The position numbers were made by a program, and so were the translations under genes. From positions 1 through 36,054 of the IMG/VR virus record IMGVR_UViG_3300037808_000692: a stretch of 36,054 bases of DNA; one strand, written 5' to 3'. A model generated the notes under the pieces. It ran no database searches, had not been told where the DNA came from, and saw nothing but the letters and a program-made list of their open reading frames with translations. The DNA comes from a virus. Positions within the stretch are counted from its first letter, which is position 1; the number at the start of each line of letters is the position of its first letter. Below, piece after piece: positions 12,158 to 35,758 of the stretch.

Positions 12158-13088
12158 TTAATTAGCGTAATCTTGATCATCGTTATCCCCAGCGATTGGT
12201 ATTATCTCACAAGTGTCGTTATTACAAAACTTGTCGGGTTCAGCTTCTTCACCTTCAATACCGGCGAAGCTTAACTTTCCTAATTTCGAAAGCATTTTAT
12301 TGTATTTTTTTTCATCAATTTCCTCATATGGCATTTGTCTATAAGCCCCATACTCATGTCTCGGTAATAATGATATCCCTTTTAACTTGTATTGAAAATA
12401 TTCAAGTACATGTGGTAGTTGTGTAGATTCAACTGCAGGATTAAATGTTGCTGTACAACTTACTTGATTGTCTGCCCAATGTCTCTGTAAGAATGCTGCT
12501 AGGCTGAATTGTTCCCATATAGATAGTTCTCCTACAGTTCGAATTCCTTCACCAATATCAATTGGAACCTCAACAACTACTGTCGAATCTTCACTACCAA
12601 ATGCTGGTTCTAAATTGTAGTTTGCTTTCTTTAACGACTCTATCAATTCTGATTGTTTAGATAATCTCATTCGTCGTATATAAAATCTACTTTCCGGATA
12701 GTGCATTCCTGGAGTAGCTCCTACTAATAAACTAACAGTTCCAGAAGGTTTAATGCTACTCAACTTTATACTTCTTGGTACAGCTAACCAATCTGAGTAC
12801 ATCTTATCCCATTTCGTTAGCTCATTATACCCTTCTTCACACCACGTTTTTAAAGAATCCAATCCCCTATTAGTAACAAATTGTGCTATACCACTCATCG
12901 ATGTACCAATTCTTCTATTTCTCAGCATAACTCGATTGGTGTCAGGCCAGTGTGTTTTTCCTAATGTAACTGTTTTTGCATATAAGTATGCATACTTTAA
13001 TGTCTTCTTATAATCTTCTAAGTCGTCGTGGTGGTGTGGGAAAGTTTCCACAAGACAACATAATTCATAAGATTCTAAACTTTGTTCG
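12158..13088 (-). CDS. nrdJ: NrdJ class II ribonucleotide reductase, C-terminal exon
   Basis: The frame continues upstream of the GTG at 13051 to 13088, reading EQSLESYELCCLVETFP, the conserved segment right after the catalytic cysteine motif of B12-dependent reductases. A stop and a group I intron lie immediately upstream, so this is an exon, not a free gene. It covers the C-terminal half of the barrel (TVSLLVGATPGMHYPES, KPSGT) and ends near a CNNDTC pair matching the redox-active tail cysteines. Joined to the exon-1 codons (Cys-Leu) it supplies 311 residues; with the 360-residue N-extein the mature enzyme would be about 671 residues. Confidence 0.93.
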
Positions 13089-13263
13089 CTTTTTACGGAT
13101 TGTATCAGTAAACTTTCAATCTATAAGGTGGACTGTCGCATCTTCATTAGAAGTTTCTCCGCTCAGTCTCTCACGCTGGCTTTACCCTTGCGCCCTGTCG
13201 GCGTTTCACTCGCCTTCCAAGTCAATCAGGAGAAATTTATACTACCCCGGGACTTGTTAGTTA
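13089..13263 (-). ncRNA. Group I intron in nrdJ, 175 nt, no ORF
   Basis: The sequence between IntC-Cys-Leu and the downstream exon folds as a compact group I intron. The exon end CTGCCT (13269-13264) pairs with internal guide GGGTAG (13247-13242), with U.G at the splice site, forming P1. TTTCTCC and GGAGAAA form P3, GAGACTG (13170-13164) and CAGTCC (13135-13130) form P7, and ACTTC-TAAT-GAAG forms P8. The last intron base is G at 13089. Removal restores the reading Cys-Leu-Glu-Gln-Ser-Leu, as expected for NrdJ. No endonuclease lies inside it. Confidence 0.9.
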
Positions 13264-13376
13264 AGGCAGTTGTGGATTAATATATTATTAGCCACAAAAT
13301 TGTGATTATTTTCTACACTCAAATCGTATACGTCTTGATTTTTATCATGTAATATTGTTTTAAGCAATCTTCCCAT
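13257..13376 (-). CDS. nrdJ: NrdJ split-intein C half (IntC) plus first C-extein codons
   Basis: A 39-codon frame starts at ATG 13376 with GGAGA ten bases upstream and overlaps the endonuclease gene end. It reads MGRLLKTILHDKNQDVYDLS, then VENNHNFVANNILIHN, then Cys-Leu. The block F/G ending VxNNHNFxANxILxHN followed by Cys is the C half of a split intein like NrdJ-1. In unspliced RNA translation stops two codons after the Cys; intron removal joins it to the C-terminal exon. The product would be an IntC-NrdJ(C) protein that trans-splices with the N-terminal half. Confidence 0.92.
   Translation of the reverse strand: MGRLLKTILHDKNQDVYDLSVENNHNFVANNILIHNCLN
13269..13376 (-). mobile_element. 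Split intein C fragment of nrdJ (36 aa)
   Basis: This is the 36-residue IntC, ending in the penultimate His and terminal Asn (IHN) that cyclises during splicing. The next codon, TGC, is the +1 nucleophile and also the thiyl-radical cysteine of the reductase. Confidence 0.92.
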
Positions 13377-14409
13377 AAGATTTAATCTCCGTTAAATAAT
13401 TGTTAATTGAACTAAAGTATTTTTCGATACTTTTTTTAGTAATCCCAAAGGTTTTTGGAACAGCTTCAGTTTTATTTTTTCTCTCTATTATGATATTATT
13501 AATATCAGTAATCTCTTTTATGTTGTATAATTCAAGTAAAACCCCATACTTTAACATTTTAGTTTTATATGAATTAATTGAACTATTTTTTGGTAATGGT
13601 TTTCGTGGTTTACCAATCAAATTATTGTATCTATTAGTGCATCCATTCTTTTTACACGTTTTTCTATCGATATCGCTTACAATCCTGTATTCGAATACAT
13701 CTCCACAAATAATACAATTAGATACTTTTATTGGATCAGTTATATCCTTTCCTTCCCAAAATAATTTACTCTCTTCCTTGCGTTGTGCTGATATTATCTC
13801 CCGCCTTTTCATACCATCTGGTGTATTATAAAAAGCACGTATAGATTTGCTAAGTCTATCAGTATATTTTTTATCAGATGCCCGTTCGGCTGTTTTTTTT
13901 CCAATTTTAAGTTTAGTTTCATCTGAAGATGTCGTGCCGTATCTTGGATTGTTTTTACCTCTCATATCCACAGTTTTATGGTTTTTAATAGAAGCTTCAA
14001 TCCATTCTTTAACACCATTTTCAAGTTTATATTTTTTAACTATTTTGCTAATGTGTTTATCCCACACTACCAAATACCGTATTCCGATATTTCCAAACAA
14101 TTTATTGTATTTATAATAATAATCCATAGCTTCTTTTTTAGAGCTTTTGACTTCTATAATTGTTCTAATTTTATCATTAACAATATGAAAAAAATCAGGC
14201 TTGTAACTTTTACCATCAAATTCGTATATTTTACTTTCATATAAAAATGACATATTAGCTATATCCAACCATTTAGCAATAACAAATTCACATTTACTGC
14301 GTAAATAATATTTTTTATTATCTTTTGTTGTATAATACCCGACATAACTTCTATGATTAGTATCACCTCTCTTAATTTTCCCATGTTTTTGTTCACAATA
14401 TGTTTTCAT
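13360..14409 (-). CDS. Homing endonuclease, PD-(D/E)XK + NUMOD3 type, between intein halves
   Basis: The 349-residue protein sits exactly between IntN and IntC of nrdJ. Its N-terminal domain has Glu41 (SKCEFVIAKW), PD at 71-72 in YKPDFF and EVK at 86-88, a PD-(D/E)XK active site. GKNNPRYGTTSSDETKLKIG near 150-170 is a NUMOD3 DNA-binding element, and CIICGDVF...CKKNGC near 233-260 is a four-cysteine zinc module. It would cut intein-less nrdJ alleles and drive spread of the split intein. The layout matches the fractured genes described from marine metagenomes. Confidence 0.85.
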   Translation of the reverse strand: MKTYCEQKHGKIKRGDTNHRSYVGYYTTKDNKKYYLRSKCEFVIAKWLDIANMSFLYESKIYEFDGKSYKPDFFHIVNDKIRTIIEVKSSKKEAMDYYYKYNKLFGNIGIRYLVVWDKHISKIVKKYKLENGVKEWIEASIKNHKTVDMRGKNNPRYGTTSSDETKLKIGKKTAERASDKKYTDRLSKSIRAFYNTPDGMKRREIISAQRKEESKLFWEGKDITDPIKVSNCIICGDVFEYRIVSDIDRKTCKKNGCTNRYNNLIGKPRKPLPKNSSINSYKTKMLKYGVLLELYNIKEITDINNIIIERKNKTEAVPKTFGITKKSIEKYFSSINNYLTEIKSYGKIA

Positions 14410-14487
14410 AATTCATCTCTTTTTAGTGGTTGTTTATCTAATAATAAATATAATAGAATTAAAAAATAAACACTAAAATTAAAAGAA

Positions 14488-15882
14488 TTATGTTATTATT
14501 TTAATATTATCATCTTCAGTTAAATCTTTAGCTTCTACATACCCCTTATTGGTTGTATAGACTTTATGGTCAGGGGTACAAGTAAGTTTATAGATATTTC
14601 CATCTTCTTCAATCTCTAACGTCATGATAGAAACATCCTTTCTGCTTAACCAAGCGTTAGTAATAACATTGTATTCTAATGATAGAGTATTTTCATTAAA
14701 AGTTAATGCTTTAATTTCTTCACCGTTTTTTACCAGTTCTACAACTTCTTCAACGGTTAATTTACCTTTATCAGTATTAACTAATGTATCACCAACTACA
14801 CATGGATTTCCACCAGCTACCCTATGGTCTTTATTATCACCACCATTTTTCATACGAGAATACTTTCTCATATTATCTAACCACGCAATTCCAGGTTCAC
14901 CATTATCTACTATTCGTTTACATATATCAGTATAATCCATTCCTAATTCAGCGAATACTGAGTTATTGGAAGTCCATCCGTAATCTTCCCTATGAGGGTT
15001 TTTCTTGTAATTCTTTAGATCTAAATATTCTTCTGAGTGTGGATCTCCAAATACAATCTCAGCTGTGCGCCTTACATTACCGGCCACTACACACTTACCA
15101 ATCAAATTCATGATGTCCACAATTGTAGTTACTGTAATTGGTTGTCCTATATTGATGTCTAATATTTTTTTAATTTTATTATTAATTTCCTCTAATGGAT
15201 CAGGACCACTACTAATTCCCCCAAATCCTTTAATGGGTTCTCCCAACCCTCTGATTAACGAGTAATCAAATTCTACATCTACAGTTCCTACGAAGTAGCT
15301 ATCCAACACCATCTTTACAGATTCTACCCAACCTTCTCGTGTATCTGGAATCCGAAATACATTGGATGTTTGTGATAAGTTTAATTTGGGACCTTTAATA
15401 ACAATCTCACCAGCACCTTTTGTATCGAAACCGACACCCACTCCTAACATAGAAGCGTCCATTAGGAATGTGAATGGTTTAGATAAATCTTCCTTAATAG
15501 TCTTAGTTGAAACGAACGCACAATTGTTAAGTGCTGCGTATAATTTCTTTTCTTCTGTTATAGCAGTTCCCATTGCCCATAACCCACGACCGGGTGGAAG
15601 GAATTTCATACTCCACATTCTCTCGTACATTTCTTGAGCTGAGTTTTGAGCTTGCCATGGATTCCAACCTAATTGGTGCTGTTCAATCCACTGCTTTTGC
15701 ATATTGTAAGTACCTTCTACAACTCGTCTAATAGTTTCCCACCATCTCTCATTTTTACCATTATCTTTGATACGGGAATATGTTCTCATATAAACTAACT
15801 CACCAAGACCATTGAAACCGAATGGTGGTTTTTTTCTTTTATATTTATTTATAAATGATTCCGTTAAAACAAACTTATCCAT
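14488..15882 (-). CDS. nrdJ: NrdJ class II ribonucleotide reductase N-terminal half fused to IntN
   Basis: Residues 1-360 are the N-terminal part of an adenosylcobalamin-dependent ribonucleotide reductase of the Lactobacillus RTPR type. They include WWETIRRVVEGTYNMQKQ, FLPPGRGLWAMGTA near 94-107, redox Cys121 (NNCAFVST), CVVAGNVRRTAEI and ending GGNP. From residue 361 the protein is an intein N fragment (CVVGDTLVNT...TCTPDHKVYTTNKGYVEA) that stops after 104 residues. The enzyme makes deoxynucleotides for phage DNA. The start is ATG 15882 with GGAGAAC upstream. The remaining half is encoded 1.1 kb downstream, so activity depends on trans-splicing. Confidence 0.95.
   Translation of the reverse strand: MDKFVLTESFINKYKRKKPPFGFNGLGELVYMRTYSRIKDNGKNERWWETIRRVVEGTYNMQKQWIEQHQLGWNPWQAQNSAQEMYERMWSMKFLPPGRGLWAMGTAITEEKKLYAALNNCAFVSTKTIKEDLSKPFTFLMDASMLGVGVGFDTKGAGEIVIKGPKLNLSQTSNVFRIPDTREGWVESVKMVLDSYFVGTVDVEFDYSLIRGLGEPIKGFGGISSGPDPLEEINNKIKKILDINIGQPITVTTIVDIMNLIGKCVVAGNVRRTAEIVFGDPHSEEYLDLKNYKKNPHREDYGWTSNNSVFAELGMDYTDICKRIVDNGEPGIAWLDNMRKYSRMKNGGDNKDHRVAGGNPCVVGDTLVNTDKGKLTVEEVVELVKNGEEIKALTFNENTLSLEYNVITNAWLSRKDVSIMTLEIEEDGNIYKLTCTPDHKVYTTNKGYVEAKDLTEDDNIKIIT
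14491..14802 (-). mobile_element. Split intein N fragment of nrdJ (104 aa)
   Basis: The fragment starts with Cys1 right after GGNP. It contains block A CVVGDTLV and block B LTCTPDHKVYT (TxxH), and ends in DLTEDDNIKIIT before the stop. Its sequence pattern is close to the NrdJ-1 fast split intein family. The C fragment is at 13269-13376. Confidence 0.93.
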
Positions 15883-34764: not shown

Positions 34765-34992
34765 TTAAGTTTTTCGCGATGATGGTGGCCTACTTAACCC
34801 CTTATTTTGCTTAGTAGACTTTTCCATTTGCTTCGCCTCTTCTTTATAACTAAGTTCGAGTTGTTTCAAATAGAACATACGTAAGTATGTGGGCATCATA
34901 TAAACTTCATTAAATGTGAATCCACCTTTACCGTGGAAGCATAGTTGATAGATTTGTTTGTGTATGTTAGGTTTATCTTCTGGTTTTAGGCC
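34765..34992 (-). CDS. Frameshift extension of the gp26-like gene (tail assembly chaperone-like)
   Basis: A 75-codon frame begins at the run of seven T just before the gp26-like stop and lies +1 (or -2) relative to it. It reads GLKPEDKPNIHKQIYQLCFH, then GKGGFTFNEVYMMPTYLRMF and a lysine-rich tail. The GGGF(T/N)xxEVxxMPxxLRxFY pattern is typical of C-terminal extensions of tail assembly chaperones. No ATG, GTG or TTG precedes the conserved part; the first ATG would give only 43 residues. AGGAGGTGA lies about 20 bases before the slippery run. It fills what would otherwise be a 260-base gap. Confidence 0.65.
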   Translation of the reverse strand, partial: GLKPEDKPNIHKQIYQLCFHGKGGFTFNEVYMMPTYLRMFYLKQLELSYKEEAKQMEKSTKQNKGLSRPPSSRKT

Positions 34993-35758
34993 AAAAAAAC
35001 TGGACCGTCATTGGGACAGTCACCTCCTCTTCGTACCCACAAAGGGAGCATTCGAAGTTATAAGACATGTCAATATCAGGAGTCATACATTGTATATATT
35101 CTCTAAATGCAAATGAATCTCTTGATAGAAAATCATTATCGACAAATTGATTAATTTTTTGTTGGTTAACTTCACCATCAACAGATACTATGATCTTTTT
35201 CATACGTGTAGTAACCTCAGAATCTATTCGAGATCCTTTCATTATCTTTTTTAACGCGTTCAATTCTTGACTAATTTCACGCTCATCTGCTTGAGTTAAA
35301 AACTTAAATTTAATATTACGTTTAGAGTGTGGAAGATTGAATTCAAATTCATTTCTACCTTTTTCTAAATCATCAAATTTAACATTTTTATCTTCTAAAC
35401 TAGTTAGATCAATAGAATCTCGGTTATGCTCAGCACAAGCTGAACAATTAGTCTCAAAAGCGTATTCTTTACCATAAGCTAATATACGAGCAGCGACCAT
35501 TATAGCATTCTTATCACCTATAATAATATCATTTAAATTGATATCTTTATTCACTACTAATGACTCTAATAATTTATCAATAACGATACCCTTCTTTATC
35601 AAATTCTGAGATGTTAGAATATCCTCATCTTTTGCTGTTGGGTATCTTAGTTCAATTTCCCCACTTACTAATGGACTATCACTGGAATAGAAATACCCTT
35701 TAGATGGTAAACTAACAACTTCAGTAGGAAACTGAGGTTTATTACTTTGTTCAGACAT
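34973..35758 (-). CDS. Baseplate/tail assembly protein, T4 gp26-like
   Basis: The 261-residue protein matches the T4 baseplate protein gp26 family: VVSLPSKGYFYSSDSPL near 14-30, ELRYPTAKDEDILTSQNLIKKG-type segment near 37-58, then a CxxC pair in ETNCSACAEH near 117-126 and a second in FECSLCGYEEE near 236-246, which could bind zinc. It ends VTVPMTVQFFWPKTRR at a stop next to a T7 run, where a frameshift could extend it. ATG 35758 follows AAGGAGA. It acts in baseplate hub assembly and/or as a tail assembly chaperone. Confidence 0.8.
   Translation of the reverse strand: MSEQSNKPQFPTEVVSLPSKGYFYSSDSPLVSGEIELRYPTAKDEDILTSQNLIKKGIVIDKLLESLVVNKDINLNDIIIGDKNAIMVAARILAYGKEYAFETNCSACAEHNRDSIDLTSLEDKNVKFDDLEKGRNEFEFNLPHSKRNIKFKFLTQADEREISQELNALKKIMKGSRIDSEVTTRMKKIIVSVDGEVNQQKINQFVDNDFLSRDSFAFREYIQCMTPDIDMSYNFECSLCGYEEEVTVPMTVQFFWPKTRR

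Follow-up and report, generated by a model that had tools for sequence, protein, structure and literature searches.

The DNA analyzed here, hereafter the window, is a virus fragment of 36,054 nucleotides (nt) (IMG/VR record IMGVR_UViG_3300037808_000692, positions 1 to 36,054). The gene in question is a T4 gp26-like tail gene, which lies on the minus strand of the window upstream of the tape measure gene. In profile searches, its 261-amino-acid (aa) product was matched by PF12322 (T4_baseplate, 'T4 bacteriophage base plate protein') with an E value of 2.2e-10 and by phrog_150 ('baseplate hub') with an E value of 1.6e-13. T4 gp26 and T4 gp51 are members of the same family (PF12322/phrog_150). 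Downstream, a single open reading frame (ORF) of 85 aa separates the gene from that of the tape measure protein. Close to the end of the gene, the minus strand reads ...AGGAGGTGA CTGTCCCAATGACGGTC CAG TTT TTT TGG CCT AAA ACC AGA AGA TAA.

A first-pass annotation of the window had pointed to a probable programmed +1 (or -2) frameshift at this position. As it stated, a run of seven T (T7) precedes the stop of the gp26-like gene, the run lying at 34999..34993 and the stop codon ending at 34973. Starting just before the run, the +1 frame stays open until it meets a stop at 34767..34765, the residues after the run beginning with GLKPEDKPNIHKQIYQLCFHGKGGFTFNEVYMMPTYLRMF. Direct reading also agreed that these 75 codons lack a usable start, as neither ATG, GTG nor TTG is found before the MM inside a conserved motif. 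The features of the locus are collected in Table 1.

Table 1. Features of the frameshifted gene and its surroundings, in window coordinates (TAC, tail assembly chaperone; SD, Shine-Dalgarno)
Feature	Coordinates	Strand	Remarks
TAC-N, putative short chaperone, T4 gp26-like, zero-frame product, 261 aa	34973..35758	-	PF12322 and phrog_150
AGGAGG SD-like element, 23 nt before the slip	35023..35028	-	conserved beyond coding
7-bp stem-loop between SD-like element and slip, GACUGUC-CCAAU-GACGGUC, one U.G pair	35003..35021	-	predicted -8.7 kcal/mol
Slip site UUU UUU U(GG), codons TTT TTT TGG, T7 run	34993..34999	-	kept as TTTTTTT, TTTCTTT or close variant in 148/149 relatives
TAC-C, predicted +1-frame extension, 75 aa plus stop; fused TAC-NC about 330 aa	34765..34992	-	open in relatives, pN/pS 0.14
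Tail length tape measure protein, 720 aa	32266..34428	-	phrog_58, E 6.1e-12

When IMG/VR was searched with a profile, at least 597 relatives were matched, the best 80 of which were kept as a first set. A second, independent set was made of 70 further distinct loci from a sister subgroup and, together with 79 loci of the first set, gave 149 relatives. In 78 of the 79 first-set members with a complete zero frame, the +1 frame was open past the stop, up to its normal end or to the end of the contig, and both the slip site and the +1 extension were present in 70/70 members of the second set. Conservation of the slippery run and of the frame, which had been proposed as a check, was thereby found in 148 of the 149 relatives. 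Among 80 sequences including the window, the site was TTTTTTTGG in 63, TTTCTTTGG in 9, TTTTTTTAC in 5 and a single variant in 3. TTTTTTT occupied the site in 68/80 sequences and TTTCTTT in 9/80. Since no other T7 run was found in the gene bodies of the relatives, 58,401 bases in all, its presence at this site is beyond chance.

The extension showed a ratio of nonsynonymous to synonymous polymorphism (pN/pS) of 0.14, and the changes at codon positions 1, 2 and 3 numbered 190, 93 and 506, the third position being dominant. The extension evolves as a protein and is under purifying selection. A +1-frame start, upstream or within the first 20 codons, was absent in 34 of 75 complete cases, and 58 of the 75 had no ATG. 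The same arrangement was observed in distant cultured relatives, namely Flavobacterium phage immuto, Microcystis phage Mel-JY01, Bacillus phage SP-15, Listeria phage LIS04 and Streptococcus phage GXN1: a conserved FF or FL where the zero frame nears its end, termination within 2-10 codons after it and an extension of 60-90 codons in another frame before the tape measure. The extension motif GGF..VY.MP..LR is common to immuto, Mel-JY01, SP-15 and others. Conservation, coding signature and common layout all speak strongly for a programmed access to the +1 frame before the tape measure, as first suggested. Two departures were noted. In one relative (L110:1900-2200), the slip is TTC TTC TGG and the conserved C part lies in the -1 and not the +1 frame, by either a recent switch of direction or an indel. 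In SP-15-type members (L132, L135-L137, L141-L142), TTA TTT AAT CCC AGT or CTA TTC AAT CCC AGT replaces the U run with the +1 frame open, and the slip may occur there at CCC A.

Upstream of the slip site, AGGAGGTGA spans 35028..35020 and ends 20 bases before the T7 run. It had been noticed in the first reading, and was found to be a real, selected element in both sets. SD-like cores at positions -42..-15 were present in 60 of 79 genes of the first set, against 18.0±3.3 in synonymous resampling, and in 49 of 70 genes of the second, against 17.6±3.2. The Glu codon at the element was GAG in 62% and 81% of the cases in the two sets, versus 18% and 15% in gene bodies; from this enrichment, the element favours G rather than mere pairing with the U run. 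Conservation of the purine tract for pairing with the U run was rejected, as G-ending codons were preferred over A-ending ones and the pairing to the slip bases equalled that of synonymous controls. Internal initiation at an NTN codon 12 nt before the slip was also rejected, this codon not being consistently a start.

The RNA that separates the SD-like element from the slip is predicted to fold into a stem-loop. For the 27 nt preceding the slip, the minimum free energy in the first set was -6.5 kcal/mol versus -2.9 kcal/mol for synonymous versions, and the upstream fold was among the best 5% of synonymous versions in 47/79 genes, against 3-5/79 for control windows. For the 7-bp stem ending 3 nt before the slip, 28 double-change cells were counted against 7.8 after shuffling, and the stem was paired at 93% against 21-50% when slid; these rows were chosen by fold. 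Rows not chosen by fold gave 29 double-change cells against 11.1 and 77% pairing against 18-50%. SD-like element and hairpin tended to occur together (51 genes with both, 13 with neither; Fisher p 2.5e-5, kinship ignored). With the hairpin folded, the linear SD distance of 23 nt would be reduced to about 4 nt. The hairpin is firmly supported for the subclade of the window only, because in the sister set the control window is raised as well. Its status as a universal feature was not upheld in that subgroup. A downstream stimulatory structure was likewise rejected, as downstream stem lengths did not exceed background in a simple count.

The direction of the slip was examined on the bases around the run. 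In the window, the base before the run is G, so that the -1 heptamer U UUU UUY is not formed, and the -1 frame ends after 24 codons; this frame is also closed in most relatives. A T preceded the U run in 0/79 members of the first set, when 25.6 were expected from codon usage (log10 P -17.5), and in 1/70 members of the second, when 38.4 were expected. In the cyanophage-like and XacN1/MIJ3-like branches, on the other hand, the -1 frame is open and U UUU UUC or U UUU UUU is present in 101/107 members. The cyanophage branch carries GAGGG or GGAGG beginning 15-16 nt before UUU UUC, i.e. GGAGGG about 9 nt before the heptamer, and the SD spacing known to stimulate -1 slippage is 8-11 nt (PMC6321510). 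The branch of the window differs from these by its +1 (or -2) frame, the avoidance of T before the run, an SD-like element about 23 nt upstream and the hairpin, which a fold comparison did not reveal in the -1 branches. The T-before-slip rule cleanly separates the -1 from the +1 branches. On a tree of the N parts, the direction label needed 3 changes, or 1 without the T4 pair and the rows L254 and PAU, which have long branches. From these sequence comparisons, the predicted +1 and -1 events are two forms of a single frameshift whose junction is homologous, each form belonging to its own branches.

The site is reminiscent of E. coli prfB (RF2), where P-site slippage is seen at CUU U. In both, a P-site CUU or UUU followed by U can slip forward, re-pairing one base on (UUU U in the window, CUU U in 13 relatives), and an SD-like duplex lies upstream. 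They differ in that prfB has an in-frame stop in the A-site and its SD 3 nt upstream, whereas the A-site codon is UGG or UAC here and the linear SD distance is about 23 nt.

Taken together, the gene very probably encodes a T4-like tail assembly chaperone, with TAC-N as its short product and TAC-NC as the long one reached by a programmed +1 frameshift. Most ribosomes would stop at 34973 and release TAC-N. A minority would slip one base forward with the peptidyl-tRNA on the second UUU (or CUU) of UUU-YUU-U, enter the +1 frame and produce TAC-NC with its helical C-terminal domain. The hairpin, with or without the SD-like duplex, would re-form behind the ribosome, favouring the forward slip and blocking -1. 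On 70S ribosomes, a hairpin that sits upstream, beside the E-site, promotes +1 slippage and reduces -1, an effect shared by an SD duplex (PMC6321510), and a similar action of the SD-like element and hairpin at this site is suggested by analogy. A chaperone function is likewise assigned on the model of lambda gpG/gpGT (PMC5009743), TAC-N presumably coating the tape measure and TAC-C recruiting tail-tube subunits. Lambda uses a -1 frameshift, while the window would use +1 (or -2), and the likeness is drawn by analogy.

The frame proposed in the first-pass annotation was borne out, and of its two routes +1 is probably the one used. Slippage by -2, which occurs in phage Mu, would bring the ribosome into an identical C-terminal frame but add one residue, the junction then reading FFFG and not FFG. 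The P-site UUU can indeed re-pair two bases back on T7, and some tail chaperones use -2 (PMC5009743). However, such a slip would require a mismatch at the TTCTTTTGG site (L090) and at the GAG TTC TTT CGT sites of the SP-15 branch, both of which re-pair well for +1; UUC-UUU-U variants are compatible with +1 and not with -2, while UUU-CUU-U, compatible with +1 as in prfB, would alone leave -2 possible. Furthermore, a hairpin adjacent to the E-site favours forward slippage (PMC6321510). We regard -2 as unlikely.

It is much less probable still that the +1 ORF is expressed separately, from an internal start to which the SD-like element would belong, perhaps in the manner of the split ribosome binding site of T4 gene 25. 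An SD-like element is present, and T4 genes 25 and 38 have an SD and a hairpin before the start codon, the hairpin shortening the distance from SD to target from 22 to 5 and from 27 to 11 nt, respectively (PMC3014915). In T4, however, this device serves initiation at AUG, whereas the codons following the hairpin of the window are UUU UUU GGC. No +1-frame start is conserved in the relatives, which also disposes of the earlier reservation that homologues might have an independent start, and the invariant slip and the avoidance of a preceding T would be left unexplained. RNA polymerase slippage on the T run, yielding mixed transcripts, would fit the seven T's of most members, but the run is interrupted in 15/149 members with the same frame layout (13 TTTCTTT, 1 TTTTTAT and 1 TTCTTTT), and a seven-base run is short for such slippage; this explanation is highly improbable. 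The least probable is an indel from sequencing or assembly, or decay of the gene. The break does fall at a homopolymer, and an indel error in the T7 run had been named at the outset as one possible refutation. Yet the same sequence is found at the site in a near-identical contig assembled independently from another metagenome (L001), the run is kept in about 150 relatives, and the extension is under purifying selection, so that this possibility is refuted in practice.

Several points nevertheless weigh against the +1 frameshift with upstream stimulators. At the protein level, the +1 product is a prediction; -2 slippage reaches the same frame; and a direct comparison of the window-type extension with T4 gp51 was not significant. 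In the sister set, the hairpin signal was found in 23/70 members versus 19/70 for the upstream control window, some members having a hairpin. Finally, the distance of the SD-like element from the slip, 22-28 nt, exceeds the known spacings, except if it is shortened by folding of the hairpin. With these points in mind, we propose only tentatively that the SD-like element and the stem-loop re-forming behind the ribosome before UUU-YUU-U may act together as a naturally occurring +1 signal of the 'upstream duplex' type, shared by a very large group of T4-like phages. We propose equally tentatively that the frameshift of this family may have gone back and forth between -1 and +1 without a move of the protein junction, its direction being set by which base precedes the U run.

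The statement of the first-pass annotation that frameshifted chaperones are not standard in T4-like phages is outdated. According to PMC10885494 and PMC12846349, such chaperones were published by Vladimirov et al. (2022), who also reported that the gene pair 26/51 replaces the frameshift in T4; these two later papers describe the slip sites as -1 poly-T. As a class, tail chaperones use -1, -2 or +1 (Atkins et al., PMC5009743). The gene type is thus known; the +1 use, the SD-like element about 23 nt upstream and the subclade hairpin are new as far as checked in the literature, where no report of upstream RNA signals of this branch was found.

In T4, gp26 and gp51 are hub assembly chaperones (PMC3004832). 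Their pair, as well as cyanophage gp26 with its short gp51, shares with the window the family, the place before the tape measure and the existence of short and long forms, but T4 has two paralogous genes where the window has one frameshifted gene. The window has its place before the tape measure (one 85-aa ORF away), homology to T4-like TACs and a startless second frame with a conserved slip; a T4-type pair, in which one of two PF12322 genes carries the C extension in frame, was not found in the 36-kb fragment, which has one PF12322 copy. The window extension was homologous to that of the SP-15 branch (hhalign E 3e-10) and to cyanophage gp51 (E 3.5e-5), which in turn matched the C-terminus of T4 gp51 (E 1.1e-4). 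The separate 'gp51 baseplate hub assembly catalyst' genes of cyanophage P-SSM2 and Vibrio phage KVP40 (L031:2218-2391 and L032:2113-2280) correspond to the C part of a frameshifted chaperone, in the -1 frame for P-SSM2. A remark of 2010 that cyanophage gp51 has only about 20% of the normal length (PMC3037559) is explained in this way, what is annotated as gp51 being just the C part, out of frame.

Both frameshift directions would be in use at one junction in the T4-like tail chaperones, a 'core' gene of phages that are very abundant in the environment, and the sequence rules given here tell the two apart. If true, the +1 signal would be natural, tunable and bacterial, with upstream stimulators like those of artificial constructs on 70S ribosomes. 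For annotation, many 'baseplate hub subunit' genes and small 'hypothetical' or 'gp51' genes should be merged as one frameshifted gene.

The AlphaFold2 model of the short form (TAC-N alone) had a predicted local distance difference test (pLDDT) score of 88. With Foldseek, it matched the SP-15 baseplate hub subunit (template modelling (TM) score 0.81-0.85) and viral gp26-like models. No significant match was obtained among solved structures; the best-ranked tail-chaperone fold, that of HK97 (2ob9_B), came at rank 10 and was not significant (probability 0.30, E 2.3, TMt 0.38). A sequence search of solved structures found no relative, and a nucleotide search of phage records with the region gave no match.

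The T4 gene 25 split ribosome binding site lies at the gene 26-25 junction (L013:3806-4429; PMC3014915), at the end of the homologous gene, possibly by coincidence. Elsewhere, the record carries genes for a DNA polymerase, a DnaB-like helicase, a UvsX-like recombinase and a ribonucleotide reductase. The latter, of class II, is in pieces on the minus strand (12161-15882): the N part (15882..14491) ends in an intein splicing domain (PF14890, below the curated cut-off), the C part is 13051..12161, and an ORF between them (14409..13360) has a weak NUMOD3 match. The arrangement resembles a split intein whose halves flank a homing endonuclease gene.
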